Assembly: GCF_025685395.1 (NCBI RefSeq) | Contig: NZ_JAGSYA010000003.1 | Coordinates: 620,001 to 684,000, forward strand | Direction of reading: 5' to 3' | Length of the DNA: 64,000 bases | Source: Terriglobus tenax | GTDB taxonomy: Bacteria > Acidobacteriota > Terriglobia > Terriglobales > Acidobacteriaceae | Shown: one piece after another, positions 40,595 to 48,509 of the stretch | Position numbering within the stretch: the first letter of the stretch is position 1 | How the letters are laid out: every line of letters starts with the position of its first letter | The notes under the pieces: model-generated | The model's database searches: none | Seen by the model: only the letters and a program-made list of their open reading frames with translations | Told to the model about the DNA's origin: nothing | Translations under genes and position numbers: made by a program

Positions 40595-40610
40595 CGAATA
40601 GCTCGGCTCT

Positions 40611-40676
40611 GAAACACCTGCGGCGGAAGTATGGGCGCAGATGCTTTGCTACCCATCTTCCGCCGCAGGTGCTTTC
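40611..40676 (+). terminator. Long hairpin after the MFS gene
   Basis: About 24-bp near-perfect stem: CACCTGCGGCGGAAG (40615-40629) pairs with CTTCCGCCGCAGGTG (40657-40671), extended by GAAA/TTTC and ATGGG/CCCAT with single bulges, 16-nt loop. No T-run follows, so it may act as a terminator, mRNA-stabilising hairpin or small repeat element. Confidence 0.5.
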
Positions 40677-40879
40677 AGGAAAGTTCAGCATCGAGTGACC
40701 TCATAATTTTGCAGAGATTTTTCTGGGATATAAGTACATAAGGTCGCGGCATGGATGGGTTTCAAGAATACGAGTTTCCCCCCATATTCTGTATTTGCGA
40801 TGCAAGGAAAGTAAGTTGACGTGATCAAGACGCAGCAGGATCTGGCGAACGGTCGTGAGAGAGATGCAAAAAAAATCTT

Positions 40880-40908
40880 TTGACAACTTTTCAAAAGCCA
40901 GATACGGT
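40880..40908 (+). promoter_or_regulatory. Candidate promoter of the collagen-like operon
   Basis: TTGACA (40880-40885) followed after 17 nt by TACGGT (40903-40908). A consensus -35 with a weak -10. It gives a leader of about 125 nt before the TTG start at 41043; the leader contains hairpins such as GCCAT...ATGGC (40931-40947). Confidence 0.45.
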
Positions 40909-41042
40909 CTCATCCGTACCTAAAACTTTAGCCATAGCAGTCATGGCATTTCTTTGGCTCGGTGCATGAGCTGAGCTGTAATCTGCATTGATTCTCGACG
41001 GGACAGACCTGCGTCTGTAACTGCTGAGAAGGAGAGTGTGTC

Positions 41043-43478
41043 TTGAAACGTTCTGGCTTTCTTCGCCTGCTCGCGGGCATAGTTGGGTTCGCTTGTGCCA
41101 CCGCCGCATACGGCCAATTGACTGTATCGGGTGATACCACCCTCAATAGCAATCACCCCACGCTCAACTATGGTTCGCTTTCCAATCTGTACGTTTCAAG
41201 CAACCAGTCGACGTTGGTGCAATTTAGCCTTTCCGGTCTTCCTGTGGGGACGACGGCCAGTCAGATTGCCAGGGCGACGGTTAGCTTTTATGTAAACCGT
41301 GTTAATACGCCGGGACTGATCAGCGTGGCTCCGGTGAATGCTGCGTGGAATGAGTATGCGGTGACCAGCGCAAGTTCGCCTTCCATCGGGACGGCGTTTA
41401 CCAGCGTCACAGCGACGACTCCGGGCCAGTATGTGGTGATTGATGTCACCAGCCAGGTGCAGTCGTGGCTGGCAAATCCAGGTACGAATTTTGGCATCGC
41501 GCTGACGACGAACGCGGCCAATGTTTTGCTGGACTCGAAGGAAAATGATCAGACCTCTCATCCGGGCTCGCTGGATGTTGTGGTGACTTCGATGGGTGCC
41601 ACTGGAGCTACGGGGGCTACCGGAGCGCAGGGCATCCAGGGTGTTCAAGGCATCCAGGGCATTCAGGGTGTAACCGGAGCTACCGGTGCCACCGGAGCTG
41701 CGGGCGTCCAGGGCATTCAGGGTGTAACTGGCGTGACGGGAGCAACCGGCGCTACAGGAGCAACTGGAGCCACAGGTGCGACCGGCGCTACGGGAGCCAC
41801 TGGTCTTACATTCCAGGGACCATGGTCCAGCTCAGTTGCCTATTCCGTCGGCGATGGAGTGTCCCTCAACGGTAGTTCCTGGATTTCGCTCACGGGCAAT
41901 TTCAACGTCACTCCCGGATCGGATAGCACGGTATGGGCACTTCTTGCCCAGCAAGGATCCACGGGTGCGACGGGAGCCACTGGTGCACAAGGTCTGCAGG
42001 GTATCCAGGGCATTCAAGGCGTCACAGGGGCCACCGGTCCCCAGGGTCCGCAGGGTATTCAAGGTGTTCAGGGCGTCACAGGTGATACGGGGCCAACCGG
42101 AGCCACAGGTGCTACGGGTGCTACGGGGGCTACGGGTGCCACTGGCGCAACGGGAGCTCCGGTTTCCTTCAAAGGCACATGGTCTTCCTCGACTGCTTAT
42201 GCCGCGGGTGACGCTGTCTATCTGAACGGATCTTCCTACATTGCACTCTTCAACAACCTGAATGTAAATCCCGCTACCGACGTAGCAGGATCGGGCGGAA
42301 CCTGGGCGCTGCTGGCCCAGCAGGGCGCTACGGGAGCAACTGGTGTCACGGGCGCTACCGGAGCTACTGGTCTCCAGGGCCTGCAAGGGATTCAGGGTAT
42401 CCAGGGTGTGACGGGTTATACCGGAAATACCGGCTCAACCGGTGCAACAGGCGCAACGGGCGACACAGGTGCAACAGGGGCTACCGGTGCTACGGGAGCA
42501 ACGGGCTCTGGCGTCAGCTTCAAGGGGGCCTGGTCCAACACGCAGACCTACGCCATCAACGACATTGCGACCTATCCGTTTACCAATGGATCGACCTACA
42601 TCTGCATCTCTCCGGTAACATCGCTGCCAGGAGCTTCGCCCGATACCGATACCACCCACTGGAAGTTATTTGTTCCCGCCGGTTCGACCGGGGCAACCGG
42701 TGCTACAGGCGGTATTGGCCCCACTGGACCTCTAGGCCCGCAAGGAGTCCAGGGGATTCAGGGTGTGACGGGTGATACCGGAAATACCGGTGCAACGGGA
42801 GCTACCGGAGCAGCCGGATCGGTTGCCTACCAGAGCGTCTACTCAACCGCCACCACGTATGCGAAGGGTGACGTCGTCTCGGACTCCAACTACTTCAACA
42901 GCTATATCTCTCTGGCGAACAGCAACCTCAATAACCCACTGCCCACCGGCAACACGCCGACTGCATTCTGGGCTCGTCTTGCATCTCAGGGTGCGCAAGG
43001 CCTGCAGGGAATTCAAGGCGCGAATGGTCCACAGGGGCCGACAGGACCGACGGGTGCAACGGGTGCGACAGGTCCGGCCGGAACGGCTGGGGACGGCCAA
43101 ACGCTGACCAGCATTCCGCTGATCGTTGTTGGTCATGGAGCTGCTTCAACGCAGGCCAACTTCTCTCTGACGTCGAGCGCTGCAACCACTTCGTCTACAG
43201 CGAACTATTACATTGTGGCCACCCTGGCTCCGGCCTCGTGCCACGCCTATGTCACCATCTTCTCGTACGGCAATGCAATCACCTGGAACCTCTTCCAGGC
43301 GACGTATAGCGGAGGCAATACCTTCGGCACGCCATCGTCCAGCTCCTGCGCCACCAGTAGCGGTAACGGATACAGTTGCACCATCGACGGTGGAACTGTG
43401 AGTGCGGCAACTGGGATGTGGATGAACGAGTCAGCGGCAACCGCCGCCAGCTTTACCACAGCATTCTCTTGCCAGTAG
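41043..43478 (+). CDS. Collagen-like multi-module secreted protein
   Basis: 811 residues; TTG start with AAGGAGAG upstream. Signal peptide about 1-24 (ACATAAYGQ). Residues about 25-185 resemble a DNRLRE-type stalk domain ([27 protein letters not shown]). From about 190 to 695 Gly-X-Y collagen runs (mostly GAT, with GIQGVQ blocks) alternate with four about 50-residue modules of carbohydrate-binding look ([28 protein letters not shown], ending WALLAQQG). A globular C-terminal domain of about 110 residues ends the chain. Likely a long surface fibre binding glycans or cells. First gene of a six-gene co-directional set. Repetitive DNA here may recombine. Confidence 0.85.
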
Positions 43479-43490
43479 AGTCTTTCAACC

Positions 43491-43525
43491 GCCGCCACCT
43501 TCTCGTAAACCGGGACGGTGGCGGC
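43491..43525 (+). promoter_or_regulatory. Intergenic hairpin after the collagen-like gene
   Basis: GCCGCCACC (43491-43499) pairs with GGTGGCGGC (43517-43525). No T-run. May stabilise or attenuate the polycistronic mRNA between the collagen-like and collar genes. Confidence 0.4.
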
Positions 43526-43563
43526 AACTATATCGTTCCAGGAACTTGTGGAGAAATGTAACG

Positions 43564-44271
43564 ATGGCAGATCCATTTATCGGTGAAATTCGTGCTGTTG
43601 GCTTCGATTACGCGCCCGCGGATTGGGCGCCATGTGACGGCCGGCTTTTGCAGGTCTCGCAGTACCAGGCCCTGTTTGCTCTCTTGGGCACCATGTACGG
43701 TGGAAATGGTACCAGCACCTTCGGCCTTCCCGACCTGCGTGGACGCTCGGTCATCGGCGCCGGGATCGGCGCAAACCCTCCTCTTGCTCCCGTTGTGCAG
43801 GGAACCAAGTATGGCGCCCAGCAGGCTCAGCTCCTGCTCTCCAACATGCCGACGCATAACCATATCGCAATGGTGAACGATCCCGGCCATGCGCACTTGG
43901 CTGGCATGCCCTCGCATACCCATACCTTTGCCGTGCCCTGTGCGGCCAGTGCAACTACGGCCACCTCTACTGATCCGAACGGTAACGTGCTGTGCACCAC
44001 CCAGGCCATCGAAGACGCTATCACCAATAGCCCTCTCGGTGTCGATCCGGGCCCTCTTCCGCTCTATGCTTCCACCGCAGGCGGAACGATGGCCAGCGCA
44101 AACACGGGTACGCCATCTGTGACTGCTACCACGTCCACTTCGGTCTCGACTACCGGAATCTCCGTTGTTACCGCCAATACGGGGTCAGGTTTGCCTTTTT
44201 CGATTCAGTCCCCTGGGCAGGGTCTCTACTACATCATTGCGCTCCTCGGCATCTGGCCGACGCGTCCGTAA
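43564..44271 (+). CDS. Phage-tail-collar domain protein (MdpB-like), first copy
   Basis: 235 residues from ATG 43564. The tail-collar fold is clear: FIGEIRAVGFDYAPADWAPC, DGRLLQVSQYQALFALLG, MYGGNGTSTFGLPDLRGRS, NMPTHNHIAMV, and the typical end YYIIALLGIWPTRP. Proteins of this kind ('microcystin-dependent protein') occur in bacteria outside prophages, often in tandem next to a GNAT gene, and their job is unknown. No phage structural genes lie nearby. No signal peptide is evident. Paralogous to the next gene. Confidence 0.88.
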   Translation: MADPFIGEIRAVGFDYAPADWAPCDGRLLQVSQYQALFALLGTMYGGNGTSTFGLPDLRGRSVIGAGIGANPPLAPVVQGTKYGAQQAQLLLSNMPTHNHIAMVNDPGHAHLAGMPSHTHTFAVPCAASATTATSTDPNGNVLCTTQAIEDAITNSPLGVDPGPLPLYASTAGGTMASANTGTPSVTATTSTSVSTTGISVVTANTGSGLPFSIQSPGQGLYYIIALLGIWPTRP

Positions 44272-44355
44272 ACATGAACCATGTTGCAAAAGTATCGGTA
44301 GCATCCATCCAGGCTTATTGCAGAGTTCTAGAAGTTCAGGAAGGAAGTCACGCTC

Positions 44356-44898
44356 ATGTCAGATCAATATCTCGGCGAAATCAGAATCTTCGGTGGTAAC
44401 TTCGCTCCATCGGGCTGGGCCCTGTGCAACGGGCAGTTGATATCCATCAGTCAGAATTCCGCACTTTTCGCTATCCTCGGAACAACCTATGGTGGGGACG
44501 GCGTTCAGACCTTCGCTCTGCCTAATCTTCAGGGCCGTCTGCCATTGCACTGGGGAACTTCCACCACCGGCTCCAACTATGTTCTGGGAGAAGTGAGTGG
44601 TTCCGAGAAGGTAACTCTGCTGGCGAATAACCTTCCCATGCACACACATGCTATTTCGATTCCCGTTAATAGCGGTCCGGCAGACCTTTCGGATCCCACT
44701 GGAGCAATTGAATCCACGCCGAATGACCCAGCCAGCGGAAATCCGATCTCGTCATACACAAAGAATGCGGCGACTGGAGCCGCATTACCGTTCCAATCCG
44801 GAATTGCGGGTAGTTCAATCCCCATCTCTGTCATGCAGCCATTTCTGTGTGTGACCTTCATCATTGCTCTCGTAGGGATCTTCCCCTCCAGGGGCTAA
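44356..44898 (+). CDS. Phage-tail-collar domain protein (MdpB-like), second copy
   Basis: 180 residues with the same fold as the preceding gene: YLGEIRIFGGNFAPSGWALC, NGQLISISQNSALFAILG, TYGGDGVQTFALPNLQGR, NLPMHTHAI, and the end FIIALVGIFPSRG. About 55 residues shorter because the central His/Ser-Thr-rich part is reduced. It lies 84 nt after the first copy and 9 nt before the GNAT gene. Confidence 0.88.
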   Translation: MSDQYLGEIRIFGGNFAPSGWALCNGQLISISQNSALFAILGTTYGGDGVQTFALPNLQGRLPLHWGTSTTGSNYVLGEVSGSEKVTLLANNLPMHTHAISIPVNSGPADLSDPTGAIESTPNDPASGNPISSYTKNAATGAALPFQSGIAGSSIPISVMQPFLCVTFIIALVGIFPSRG

Positions 44899-44907
44899 CA
44901 GGTAAGA

Positions 44908-45435
44908 ATGCCGGTCGTGTATACAGTGCGAGCGATAGAAGCGCGGCCGGCATTTCGCAGGGCAGTACCGCAGGACGAGGTATTTTTGTTGAAGCTCTTT
45001 ACCGCAACGAACGATGCTTTGAGGACCATGCCACCGCAGATGCGGGAGGTGCTGGCGCCGATACAGTACCGTGCCCGCCAGGCCAGCTATGCGGCAATGT
45101 ATCCGCTGCTGGAGGACAGGGTGCTATGTCTGGAAGATGGCACGGCTGTGGGGCGTCACCTGATCCATCGTGGAGCAAGCGAGATCCGGACGGTAGACAT
45201 TGCTGTGCTGCCGCAGTATCAGCGGCAGGGGATTGGCCGCGCTTCTCTGCAGCAGCTTCAGCTGGAGTGCGGGGAAGCCCGAGTTTCGCACACATTGAGC
45301 GTTGCGAAAGGTAATCCAGCGGAAACACTGTATCTCCGACTGGGATTTTCCGTGACCGGCGCCGATGAGATGTATCTCCATATGAGTTATGGAGCGGATG
45401 AGAGTACGGAGAGAGAAACTGAGGCAGAGAACTAG
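44908..45435 (+). CDS. GNAT-family N-acetyltransferase
   Basis: 175 residues. The acetyl-CoA motif A is present: VDIAVLPQYQRQGIGRASLQ (about 95-115; Q/R-x-x-G-x-G/A), with AETLYLRLGFSVTG as motif B. An N-terminal segment of about 30 residues precedes the fold. It transfers an acetyl group to an amine of an unknown small molecule or protein in the cytosol. Linkage of GNAT genes to collar genes is recurrent in bacteria as I know them, hinting that it modifies a collar or fibre protein. AGGTAAG lies before the ATG. Confidence 0.85.
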   Translation: MPVVYTVRAIEARPAFRRAVPQDEVFLLKLFTATNDALRTMPPQMREVLAPIQYRARQASYAAMYPLLEDRVLCLEDGTAVGRHLIHRGASEIRTVDIAVLPQYQRQGIGRASLQQLQLECGEARVSHTLSVAKGNPAETLYLRLGFSVTGADEMYLHMSYGADESTERETEAEN

Positions 45436-45436
45436 G

Positions 45437-47911
45437 ATGGGAACTCCTCGTTGGAACATTCTGAAACTGGCATGTGCGACTGCATGGATTGCGGCCTCTG
45501 CGGTTGCAACGGCGCAGACTCCAGCGCAACTGAAGGTGCTGTCTGGCACGGGAGTGAGTCTGAGTGCGCCGCAGGTGGCACTGGTGAATGGCCAGCAGGC
45601 CGTTACTGTTCCGCTGAATGCCCCGGCGCAACTCTGCTATGACGCAGCGGGCAATTTCTATATTGCGGACCAGAACAACAACATTATTCGTAAGGTCGAT
45701 ACCGCCGGCATCATAACGACCATTGCCGGGACCGGCGAGCAGGGCTTTGATGGCGACGGGGGCGCGGCTACCAGCGCTACGCTGGACTCGCCGCAAGGTA
45801 TCGCAATCGATACATCTGGCAACCTGTACATCGCCGACACGCGTAACCATCGCATTCGCAAGGTGAGCACGAGCGGCATCATTACGACTATTGCAGGCAC
45901 AGGCGTTGCCGGGTTCTCCGGGGATGGCGGCGCTGCAACTTCGGCAACCATCAATCTTCCTACCGCCATCGCGGCCGACAGCAACGGGAATGTCTTTTTT
46001 GCGGACTCGAACAACAATCGCGTACGCGAAATCGTTGCCTCGTCCAGCGTGATTCAGACCGTGGCAGGCAATGGGGAGCAGGGCTACACCGGGGATGGAG
46101 GTTCAGCCACCAGCGCGACCCTGGATACACCGCAGGGAATTGCAATCGACAGCGCGGGCAACCTGTATCTGAGCGATACGCATAACAACCGCGTCCGTAA
46201 AGTGTCAGGCGGCATCATTACAACCATCGTTGGTGATGGAACCTTTAGCTTTGCAGGGGATGGAAGTGCAGCAACGTCTGGATCGCTCGCCTCTCCGCAT
46301 GGAATCGCGGTGAACGCTGCCGGAACAACGTTGTACGTTGCGGATAGCAACAACAATCGCATCCGGCAGGTGAATAGTTCCAATGTCATTTCAACGGTTG
46401 CCGGAAGTGGCGAACAGGGTCATGATCAACTCAATGGCAGCGCAACCGCGGCTTCATTGGATACGCCGCGGGGTGTGACAACTGGTCCATTTGTGTCCTT
46501 TGCCTTTGCGGATACAGGAAACGATATTGTCCGCGCGGTTTCCAATTCGAATATCGTAACCACCGCAGGACTTGGCAACCAGAGCACAAGCCTTCTTGCG
46601 CTGACAGCCTCTGCGCAAACGACGACATACGGCCAGGGCACTTTGACAGCTACGCTGTCCAGTTCCACCCAGGCAACCGGGAGCATTATTTTCTATGACT
46701 ATGGCTCTCAGGTTGCCACGGTTGCCTTGACCAGCAACACCGCCATTCTGAATCTCGGCTCCCTGAATGCCGGCACGCATAGCCTGAGTGCTTCCTTTGC
46801 TGGCGACGGTTCCAATCCGTCCGCGGTCAGTGGAGTGATGGTGGTGACTGTCAATCCATTGGCCATCACCGCGACCATCACTCCGTTGGTCTTGCAATAT
46901 GGTCAGACGATTCCGGCGGTTACGGGCTCACTGTCCGGCGTACTTGCACAGGACAACGGCAACGTCCAGGTAGCGTTCAGCACCTCGGCCACCGCGACCT
47001 CCGTTCCCGGAGCGTATGCCGTGACGGGTACGCTTTCTGGAAGTGCGGCCCCGAACTATACGCTATCTTCCATTACCGGCAATGTTCTTATCACCAGGGC
47101 TGTATCGCTGGCGGCGTTGACCTCCAGTGTCAGCAACTCCCTGTTGGGATCGCCGGTTACCTTGCAGGCTGCGGTAGCAACGTCGACGACCGGGCAGCCG
47201 ACCGGAACAGTGACCTTCATGGATGGTTCCAACATCCTGGGGTCGGCGCAGGCCCTAACCGCGGGCAGAGCCTCCGTTGCAGTATCCTCGCTGACGGCGG
47301 GCGCGCATAACCTGACTGTCGTATATAGCGGTGATACGAACTTCAATGCCAGCACTTCGTCAGCCGCTGTGGTGCAGATCAGCGATTTCAACTTCTCGCT
47401 GAGTTCGACAACGGGATCCACGCAGACAGTGATTCCGGGGCGTTCGGCAACCTACAACCTTGTCGCTGCACCGGTAAGTGGTACCTTCAGCTTCCCGATC
47501 ACACTCTCGGCCGCGGGTCTGCCTCCGGGAGCGACTGCTACCTTCTCTCCGTCCACAATTACGCTCGGTTCCAGCAATGCCAGCTTCACCTTGACGGTTC
47601 AGACGGTGGCGGCAACGGCGATGGCACACCCGGTGAAGGGAATGGGAGGCAGCGCGGCTGTTCTTGCTCTGCTCTTCCTTCCGTTCTCCTCGCGTCTGCG
47701 CCGCGGTGCACGCAAGTGGAAGCCAGGGTTACTGATGCTGGTGCTTGCTCTGAGCCTCGCTGCGGTTGGCGGGTTGACCGGATGCGGCAGTGGAACGGGT
47801 TACTTCGGTCAGCAACAGCAATCGTATACGGTGACCATCAATGGAACAGCCAGCGGTCCGAATGGAACGACCCTGCAACATTCTTCGACTGTTGTACTGG
47901 TGGTGCAGTGA
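45437..47911 (+). CDS. Secreted NHL-repeat / Ig-like-repeat protein
   Basis: 824 residues from ATG 45437, one nt after the GNAT stop. Signal peptide about 1-27. Residues about 45-375 hold about six NHL repeats (PQGIAIDTSGNLYIADTRNH, IITTIAGTGEQGFDGDGG), forming a beta-propeller. Ig-like and MBG-type repeats follow (about 380-715; PTGTVTFMDGSNILGSA). The C-terminal tail has two hydrophobic segments separated by a basic stretch (SRLRRGARKWK), then LTGCGSGTG and a beta-rich end (TVVLVVQ). This tail is common in acidobacterial secreted proteins and probably anchors them at the cell surface. Confidence 0.85.
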   Translation: MGTPRWNILKLACATAWIAASAVATAQTPAQLKVLSGTGVSLSAPQVALVNGQQAVTVPLNAPAQLCYDAAGNFYIADQNNNIIRKVDTAGIITTIAGTGEQGFDGDGGAATSATLDSPQGIAIDTSGNLYIADTRNHRIRKVSTSGIITTIAGTGVAGFSGDGGAATSATINLPTAIAADSNGNVFFADSNNNRVREIVASSSVIQTVAGNGEQGYTGDGGSATSATLDTPQGIAIDSAGNLYLSDTHNNRVRKVSGGIITTIVGDGTFSFAGDGSAATSGSLASPHGIAVNAAGTTLYVADSNNNRIRQVNSSNVISTVAGSGEQGHDQLNGSATAASLDTPRGVTTGPFVSFAFADTGNDIVRAVSNSNIVTTAGLGNQSTSLLALTASAQTTTYGQGTLTATLSSSTQATGSIIFYDYGSQVATVALTSNTAILNLGSLNAGTHSLSASFAGDGSNPSAVSGVMVVTVNPLAITATITPLVLQYGQTIPAVTGSLSGVLAQDNGNVQVAFSTSATATSVPGAYAVTGTLSGSAAPNYTLSSITGNVLITRAVSLAALTSSVSNSLLGSPVTLQAAVATSTTGQPTGTVTFMDGSNILGSAQALTAGRASVAVSSLTAGAHNLTVVYSGDTNFNASTSSAAVVQISDFNFSLSSTTGSTQTVIPGRSATYNLVAAPVSGTFSFPITLSAAGLPPGATATFSPSTITLGSSNASFTLTVQTVAATAMAHPVKGMGGSAAVLALLFLPFSSRLRRGARKWKPGLLMLVLALSLAAVGGLTGCGSGTGYFGQQQQSYTVTINGTASGPNGTTLQHSSTVVLVVQ

Positions 47912-47933
47912 TGGAGTTGAAAGTAAGCCTGTG

Positions 47934-48509
47934 ATGAGACAATCCCGCACCCTTCTTACGCTTATCGGCTTGACCTATGCGGCAATGCTCCCTGCCCAAC
48001 AGCAGCAGGGCGTTCGCCCGCTGCGGACAGACATTGTTGCGACATATACAACCGAGCGCTCGCTTCGCACCAGCTCAGGACAGAGCTTCTGGAAGCAGGG
48101 AGGCTCTGTCAACTATGGGACCGAGTTGTGGAAGGGCTTTGGTCCAGCCGCTGATCTATCCGTGACTCACACCGGCTCTATCGCGACCAGTGGTCCGTCT
48201 CTTACGACATTGGCCCTGACCTTTGGCCCGCGCTATCGCTGGCATCCGCACTCGAAGGTTACTCCGTTTGGAGAGGCGTTGTTCGGTTTCGTCCATGGCT
48301 CGAACAGCATCTTTCCCTCAACCGCCGGATCTTCTTCCAGTGCCACCAGCTTTTCCATGCTGGTGGATGGCGGTATTGATTTCCATGTGGGACGTCATTT
48401 TGATCTCAGGGCTCCACAGCTCGGCTGGGTGCATTCGACGCTGCCCAATGGGGCAGATAATGTCCAGAACAACTTTCGGTTGAGCTTTGGAGCCGGAGTC
48501 CGCTTTTAG
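47934..48509 (+). CDS. Outer-membrane beta-barrel protein, small
   Basis: 191 residues from ATG 47934; the frame is longer upstream. Signal peptide about 1-21 (TYAAMLPAQQ). Alternating hydrophobic/polar strands and a terminal aromatic residue (LSFGAGVRF) indicate an eight-strand OmpA/OmpW-sized barrel (GPRYRWHPHSKVTPFGEALF, DGGIDFHVGRHFDLRAPQLG). Last gene of the collagen-collar-GNAT-NHL series, 22 nt after the NHL gene. Could be the outer-membrane anchor or exit of the series; this is inference. Confidence 0.75.
   Translation: MRQSRTLLTLIGLTYAAMLPAQQQQGVRPLRTDIVATYTTERSLRTSSGQSFWKQGGSVNYGTELWKGFGPAADLSVTHTGSIATSGPSLTTLALTFGPRYRWHPHSKVTPFGEALFGFVHGSNSIFPSTAGSSSSATSFSMLVDGGIDFHVGRHFDLRAPQLGWVHSTLPNGADNVQNNFRLSFGAGVRF

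Follow-up and report, generated by a model that had tools for sequence, protein, structure and literature searches.

We analysed a set of six genes in a 64,000-nucleotide (nt) stretch of the Terriglobus tenax contig NZ_JAGSYA010000003.1 (the whole stretch is called the window below, and all coordinates refer to it). The genes encode a collagen-like secreted protein, two stand-alone proteins of the phage-tail-collar family (collars 1 and 2), a GNAT acetyltransferase, a secreted protein with an NHL propeller and a small outer-membrane beta-barrel (Table 1). A preliminary description of this DNA had reported six co-directional genes, and all six are indeed present on the + strand, with the gaps of 85, 84, 9, 1 and 22 nt given there. 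The interval it assigned to them, 40880-48509, does hold the gene set, but it starts upstream of the first gene, which begins at 41043. Its suggestion of a surface fibre or adhesion assembly remains the best reading, and the set is a real conserved unit, in that its order is kept in several species.

Table 1. Features of the six-gene set and its upstream region
Feature	Coordinates	Strand	Evidence or remark
Upstream region, sugar transporter gene to collagen gene; expected place of the promoter	40600..41042	+	Position
Collagen-like secreted protein, 811 aa	41043..43478	+	TTG start; Pfam, NCBIfam
CBM96/DNRLRE domain of the collagen-like protein, aa 25-171	41115..41555	+	PF24517 5.3e-18; NF033679 2.5e-20
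Collar protein 1, 235 aa, begins MADPF	43564..44271	+	PF07484 3.6e-27
Three HxH motifs of collar 1, residues 98, 109, 118 (numbered from MADPF)	43855..43923	+	Sequence
Collar protein 2, 180 aa, type C by loop motif	44356..44898	+	PF07484 1.5e-28; AF2 model, Foldseek
HxH of collar 2, H96-T-H98	44641..44649	+	Aligned with T4 gp12 H445-K-H447
Collar-associated GNAT, 175 aa	44908..45435	+	Pfam GNAT; QRQGIG at presumed acetyl-CoA loop
Secreted NHL-propeller/Ig-like/MBG protein	45437..47911	+	NHL, Big_3_5, MBG_2; longer frame opens at 45389
C-terminal 'lipo-invert' putative anchoring domain of the NHL protein	47579..47908	+	NF058595
Small outer-membrane beta-barrel, 191 aa	47934..48509	+	PF13505 (OMP_b-brl) 30.2 bits, cut-off 28.7

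The collagen-like protein begins with a signal peptide (signal peptides were assessed by eye throughout) and a CBM96/DNRLRE domain, continues with Gly-X-Y stretches interleaved with CBM5/12-like modules, and closes with a cysteine-containing domain that ends in -CQ and has no family name. Its collagen repeats score 125.3 bits against a PF01391 cut-off of 27.2, in seven stretches. Where the preliminary description had counted four glycan-binding-like modules, CBM5/12 passes in three stretches, and a fourth similar module is recognised by eye only; the N-terminal CBM96/DNRLRE domain is an addition to that description. Both collars are clear members of PF07484, as had been claimed (94.5 and 99 bits, with a Pfam cut-off of 24), and neither has a Sec signal by eye. 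The NHL protein has an apparent signal peptide, and its residues 731-840 of 840 match lipo-invert (NF058595) at 41.3 bits, above the cut-off of 37, a domain whose anchoring role NCBIfam itself calls putative. The QRQGIG of the GNAT is a segment that we take to be the acetyl-CoA loop motif.

As a side observation, the C-terminal domain of the collagen-like protein (43092-43475), to which Pfam assigns no family, is common to ten aligned collagen-like proteins that end in -CQ or nearly so; the carriers are Acidobacteriota and one proteobacterial record (L074). The upstream region holds no open reading frame of at least 90 amino acids (aa) on the + strand, and a consensus scan of that strand, which is weakly informative, found no sigma-70-like promoter and no terminator-like site in the intergenic gaps.

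Gene order in relatives

Collars are patchily distributed: counting the window's own genome, they occur in 10 of 61 genomes in a set of relatives and in 30 of 200 in a set from the class. In the window's family, a full-length collar outside a run of three is found in nine genomes (G000, G002, G007, G013, G016, G030, G073, G079 and G105), and in all nine it sits between the collagen-like gene and the NHL gene. The order collagen-collar-GNAT-NHL is present in seven records, comprising the window, four further genomes (G007, locus L018; G073, L149; G079, L150; G105, L151) and two named records, Acidobacteriales bacterium 59-55 (L067) and Edaphobacter modestus (L073). An intact barrel gene comes next in five of these, namely the window, L018, L150, L151 and L067. 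The genome G030 (L021) has collagen-collar-NHL.

The loci L018, L021, L067, L073 and L149-L151 belong to different species, because their best DNA matches are only 66-75% identical and several pairs give no match. Conservation of neighbours outside this strain, on which the preliminary description had made its proposal depend, is therefore found for collagen-collar-GNAT-NHL, and because the order is conserved between species, the set is more than a chance arrangement. Collar 1 is special to the window; the nearest row in the tree is one Burkholderia collar, which also has a GNAT nearby.

Collars and their partners in other phyla

We used structure prediction and profile alignment to compare the collars with phage proteins. 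With an AlphaFold2 (AF2) model of collar 2, Foldseek returned nine matches in the PDB, eight of which are phage tail-fibre chains, including T4 gp12 (1ocy) and the gp37 tip (2xgf); the ninth, 6ov6 from Bizionia, is presumably a prophage fibre tip. An hhalign comparison of 67 collars with T4 gp12 gave 93.9% over residues 6-104 and laid the HxH of collar 2 onto that of gp12 (Table 1). The same motif is present in 200 of 201 collar rows (199 collars plus the two of the window; 15 of 214 frames had no parseable start and were left out, the fused chain L026 among them), the exception being the fused chain L025. HxH sites of this kind bind octahedral iron in tail fibres and, in gp12, zinc, as one paper describes (PMC6116203). 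The collars are predicted to form a gp12-like trimer with a metal held by two histidines per chain. They resemble T4 gp12 (PDB 1ocy) and PF07484 in the collar core, the order of elements and the aligned HxH, but they differ from gp12 in being stand-alone chains of 180 and 235 aa without its shaft, in lying in a chromosome alongside GNAT and surface-protein genes, and in sequence, collar 2 being at most 36% identical to the 25 phage matches listed.

Beyond the class, we analysed named loci, the best 80 of at least 585 confirmed collar loci, and the proportions given for named loci refer to that sample. These 80 span eleven named phyla. The number of collars per locus varies, being as a rule one, two or three, with exactly three frames in 51 of the 80. 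The usual cassette elsewhere consists of three collars and a GNAT beside giant secreted proteins, some of which have SLH, CWB2 or T9SS anchors. By a crude rule, made after looking at the sequences, collars can be sorted by loop motif into types A, B and C. One collar of each type is found in 34 of the 46 loci with three scored rows, the other 12 not fitting, and single collars are mostly of one motif type (25 of 30). Gene position, with first, second and third collars as three clades, was tried and rejected: the order varies, and the tree requires 29 changes, compared with 2 if the fit were perfect and a mean of 71 after shuffling. Motif types were preferred because they fit better. The existence of three collar types suggests, rather than shows, a mixed trimer.

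The three-collar form is marked by DUF6916. This family has two matches in each of 6 of the 200 class genomes (G058, L023; G195, L154; G232, L167; G166, L166; G066; G228), and all six have a run of three collars; it is missing from three other three-collar genomes and from the window's genome. A small-protein cluster with a DUF6916 representative is found in 27 of the 80 named loci. Separately, twelve consecutive collar frames, apparently grouped in threes, were seen in an Ignavibacteria record (L083:1421-10246). Asparagine-synthase-like proteins lie near two collar loci (L022:12024-13898 and L025:6384-8279), the latter gene standing beside frames that by eye resemble a sulfotransferase and an APS kinase.

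Large neighbours are concentrated around the cassettes. Genes of at least 900 aa make up 39 of 148 same-strand genes within 1.5 kb, versus 9 of 166 at 2.5-7 kb (Fisher 2e-7; this control was tightened once, having been 9 of 189 when set at more than 4 kb), and 8 of 79 nearby genes on the opposite strand. When the C-termini of 48 large neighbours were examined, SLH was found in 7, T9SS in 8 (six of type A and two of type B) and CWB2 in 1; the list of giants is not clean, as it includes ordinary enzymes, DNA ligase for example, and the neighbour genes come from a codon-usage caller that makes some antisense errors. Scans of six whole giants found SLH, CWB2, T9SS, Ig, cadherin-like, TIG, FG-GAP and beta-helix domains. 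In two Flavobacteriaceae loci (L077 and L082), several collars have a Sec signal that ends directly before the collar domain. Taken together, these observations indicate a cell-surface location.

Collagen and collar are also found in a single chain. CBM96, collagen and collar are united in 494 aa in G012 (L025), and TIG, collagen and collar in 385 aa in G020 (L026), in both cases with all domains above the Pfam cut-offs. Four more collagen-collar chains were found with a local profile and the class search (G166, G163, G198 and G233; L162-L165), that of L164 having a short Gly-X-Y run. A signal peptide is seen in L025, L026 and L162-L164, and a hydrophobic N-terminal stretch in L165. Such chains with an apparent signal peptide show that stalk and (shorter) collar can be exported as one protein. 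In the sample of 80 named loci, a Gly-X-Y frame on the same strand within 4 kb was found in 5 of 23 one-collar loci, 1 of 4 two-collar loci and none of the 53 that have at least three collars, a count that excludes Myxococcus frames because they lie on the strand opposite to the collars. In the class regions, a Gly-X-Y gene, collar and GNAT stand together in L155 (one collar) and L157 (two collars); of the three-collar loci, L158 has a borderline Gly-X-Y frame, and L154, L166 and L167 have none.

The collar-associated acetyltransferase

The preliminary description had noted that collars and GNATs recur together, and this pairing is borne out in 53 of the 80 named loci, in eight phyla. In each of these, a member of one GNAT subfamily lies within 4.5 kb of the collars, on the collar strand in 50 of the 53; only 2 of 17 Bacteroidota loci are included. 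Within the class, a GNAT of at least 76 bits occurs in 18 of 200 genomes, all of them among the 30 with collars (hypergeometric 5e-18, kinship ignored). The threshold was chosen after a gap between 76.8 and 61.1 bits had been seen, with 18 candidates scored per genome. The gene adjoins a collar in 16 of the 18 genomes, is 9 kb away at its nearest in G166, and lies far off in G002. Weaker, partial matches of 50-61 bits were found in ten further genomes, one of which (G184) has a collar match. The GNAT thus looks dedicated to collars. Its fold is that of a GNAT (AF2 mean predicted local distance difference test (pLDDT) 92.5; Foldseek 3.0e-8 to GNATs), and of the glycines in the acetyl-CoA loop, G108 is invariant and G110 nearly so among 46 rows. 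As an observation apart, the open frame that holds the GNAT of G051 is extended by a long N-terminal part and may be a fusion (L024:8224-9294).

If the GNAT acts on collars, their N-termini are candidate targets. Ser, Ala, Thr or Gly is found at residue 2 in 121 of 141 collars with a GNAT nearby versus 26 of 58 without, or, counted per locus, 50 of 57 versus 10 of 31. Within phyla, the corresponding counts are 6/6 versus 10/26 in Bacteroidota (p 0.018), 24/31 versus 3/8 in Acidobacteriota (p 0.08), 55/56 versus 5/6 in Pseudomonadota (p 0.19), 15/24 versus 2/4 in Bacillota (p 1) and 5/7 versus 0/1 in Myxococcota (p 0.38). This pattern would fit N-terminal acetylation by the GNAT, and the enzyme probably acetylates collars. 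An argument from G002, in which Asp at residue 2 had seemed to match an absent GNAT, was dropped once the GNAT was found elsewhere in that genome.

A competing possibility, to which we give a rather low probability, is that the GNAT acetylates a small molecule, or a sugar of the glycan bound by the fibre, and not the collars. In favour of this, the structural neighbours found by Foldseek are mixed, including the polyamine enzymes PaiA and SpeG as well as RimI, Ard1 and antibiotic enzymes. However, the co-occurrence tracks collars whatever the other neighbours are, and there is a weak likeness to RimI-type protein N-acetyltransferases, although the window GNAT is not a member of TIGR01575, scoring 34.7 bits where the cut-off is 86.4.

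A proposed surface fibre and its alternatives

Paralogues in the same genome led us to correct the earlier reading in one respect: the unit joins two modules, collagen-NHL-barrel and collar-GNAT. The genome encodes three collagen-like proteins. One belongs to an operon of a collagen-like gene, an NHL/invert-tail gene and a barrel gene that overlap by a few bases, with neither collar nor GNAT (L169:2878-8029, on contig C4), whose best matches to the window are 48% identical in the collagen N-terminal domain (157 aa), 55% in the NHL protein (306 aa) and 48% in the barrel (161 aa). The third collagen-like gene (L170) is upstream of a gene for an invert-tail protein of 2,593 aa and is separated from it by a single gene. 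In addition, NHL and barrel matches adjoin each other away from collars in many relatives. Judging by the collar-less paralogue and the recurrent NHL/barrel pair, the window operon is a collagen-NHL-barrel module with a collar-GNAT module in its middle. A barrel directly follows 4 of the 14 invert-tail proteins of this genome (12 of them above the cut-off), where 0.04 would be expected by chance from about 13 barrels in 4.36 Mb, and an invert-tail protein with a small barrel is possibly a dedicated anchoring pair.

The two modules could also be neighbours that are functionally separate, collagen-NHL-barrel forming a surface structure and collar-GNAT acting in the cytoplasm, with no more in common than a transcript. 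The module without collars in the same genome, collar-GNAT without collagen elsewhere and the lack of a Sec signal in the window collars are all in keeping with this idea. Nevertheless, we consider it unlikely, as the order is retained across several species, collagen-collar fusions have apparent signal peptides, collars elsewhere adjoin other large secreted proteins, and those of the two Flavobacteriaceae loci have Sec signals of their own.

The reading that we prefer, with a probability of roughly 0.55, is that the set encodes a host-owned attachment fibre on the cell surface, with trimeric, metal-binding collar tips; it is based on the gene order, fusions, domains, HxH motif and co-occurrence. 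In such a fibre, collagen chains would form a triple-helical stalk carrying polysaccharide-binding modules, which would be attached to the outer membrane next to the NHL/barrel pair as its base, and metal-bound collar trimers would be the tip or receptor-binding knob on the stalk. The GNAT would act in the cytoplasm, most likely on the collars and perhaps on their Ser or Ala N-termini, prior to their export or assembly. Three different collars, perhaps joined in one mixed trimer, may fill the same role in many other phyla, where they stand beside a giant surface protein.

Several findings weigh against the attachment fibre. The set is not constant: no barrel was seen in L149 and only an 84-codon remnant frame in L073, and G002, G013 (on two contigs) and G016 have collagen-collar-NHL-barrel with no GNAT in the operon (L017, L020 and the G013 contigs). 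The GNAT of G002 is about 3.1 Mb from its operon, and that of G016 is in a second locus with three collars; for G013, no search was made for one elsewhere in the genome. In two genomes of the family (L152 and L153), the only collar frame has 98 codons, and neither collagen nor GNAT nor NHL was found in the 18 kb covered; in L156, L159 and L160 from the wider class a collar frame was found with no collagen, GNAT or NHL nearby. At 76 bits, 12 of the 30 class genomes with collars have no GNAT, candidates having been partly scored. With regard to acetylation, the link between residue 2 and GNAT is not significant in independent pairs on supported tree branches, and 16 GNAT-linked collars have Asp or Glu at residue 2, those of L067 and L024 among them. 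The surface location of the window collars is inferred from their kin, as they lack a Sec signal of their own. The fused collar is a short form with two cysteines and no HxH arm, which makes it a cousin of the window collars and not the same head. Collars also need no collagen in general, since none of the 53 named loci with at least three of them has it. Lastly, the Foldseek E-values of collar 2 are weak (best 3.8e-3), and its AF2 monomer reaches a pLDDT of 74.7 and a predicted template-modelling score of 0.42, although a monomer model of medium quality is to be expected if the chain can fold only when interwoven with two others in a trimer.

A broader proposal, which we put forward tentatively, is that of a host-owned display of 'tail-fibre tips' across phyla, in which phage-type, metal-binding collar trimers, mostly with their own acetyltransferase, would be combined with a large surface protein anchored in the manner of the lineage. 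Anchors found so far are SLH (L079 and L125) and CWB2 (L131) in Bacillota, T9SS (L085) in Bacteroidota, and lipo-invert with a barrel in Terriglobia. The trimers might consist of one kind of collar, carried by a collagen stalk, or be mixed, with three different chains. The collars would be exported by a route for which a Sec signal is not needed but perhaps the acetylated N-terminus is.

It is also conceivable, though in our view improbable, that the collars mask receptors: displayed on the surface of their own cell, they would occupy the glycan required by tailed phages, and the operon would provide an anti-phage or self-recognition coat and not an adhesin. Collars resemble the receptor-binding tips of phages, and their patchy spread (10 of 61 genomes, the own one included) is in keeping with changing selection on the trait. 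For some Solibacter collar paralogues, a published study reports values indicative of positive selection (PMC3174227). On the other hand, the low identity of collar 2 to the phage matches listed does not favour this idea, and adhesins would equally need the stalk and anchor partners.

The preliminary description had stated that the locus is not a prophage, and the neighbourhood agrees. Among the 11 flanking proteins of the window scanned with Pfam, there is no phage family (capsid, tail or baseplate) that would place the set in a prophage or tailocin; they belong to sugar metabolism (beta-galactosidase, aldose epimerase, PfkB and SIS) and a sugar MFS transporter, and otherwise are SnoaL, F420 oxidoreductase, AraC and TetR types, except for two that match no family. 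The genome has no other collar genes than the two in the window. No tblastn match to the window GNAT was found in 50,697 phage records, though a PHROGs phage acetyltransferase profile matches it at 39 bits, another point against the attachment fibre. In relatives, where collars inside prophages had been named as a possible refutation, no named head or tail family appears among the 25 of 54 PHROGs families listed downstream of collar loci (100 of 116 listed neighbours). Upstream (102 of 111 neighbours), the 25 of 116 families listed have mostly tail-fibre names, which decides nothing because the window's own Gly-X-Y protein also matches those names. Hence, although Pfam and PHROGs give collars and Gly-X-Y repeats tail-fibre names, the flanks, the sole two collars, the GNAT search and the downstream scan led us to reject a remnant of a phage tail or tailocin, within the limits of the acetyltransferase profile match and the upstream scan, and we consider such an origin very improbable.

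The attachment fibre has partial counterparts among known systems. Streptococcal Scl and Legionella Lcl are similar in being secreted and in having a Gly-X-Y stalk with non-collagen domains. The window protein matches their profiles weakly, at 106.5, 102.9 and 103.0 bits for NF038329, NF038330 and NF046116, far below the cut-offs of 325, 400 and 500; unlike them, it has CBM96 and CBM5/12 modules and lies in an operon with collars, GNAT, NHL protein and barrel. The COG4675 'microcystin-dependent protein' groups, to which collars of the window type presumably belong, are similar in having stand-alone collars in runs, often of three. They differ in that a dedicated GNAT, three collar types and a giant partner were not found for them among the open-licence papers listed in our searches. 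A soil metaproteome study reports the detection of COG4675 proteins (PMC5579227).

Proteins of the C1q type have a collagen stalk with a globular trimeric head. The fibre would share with them this design and, in the three-collar form, the use of three chains, but this is an analogy, and no homology is claimed. Among the open-licence papers listed in our searches, none dealt with a collar-GNAT unit or with fusions of collagen and collar, nor did any mention DUF6916 or lipo-invert. Each part of the set comes from a named family, and the set as a whole is probably a kind of surface adhesin fibre, with a fair chance of being something broader.

Stand-alone collars occur in many bacterial chromosomes, where their annotation, as a phage part or as 'microcystin-dependent protein', assigns no function. 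Synteny and fusions link them to secreted stalk proteins, and co-occurrence provides them with a dedicated enzyme. A mis-named family would in this way become a testable surface system, and the question is raised of how proteins without a Sec signal may join an extracellular fibre.

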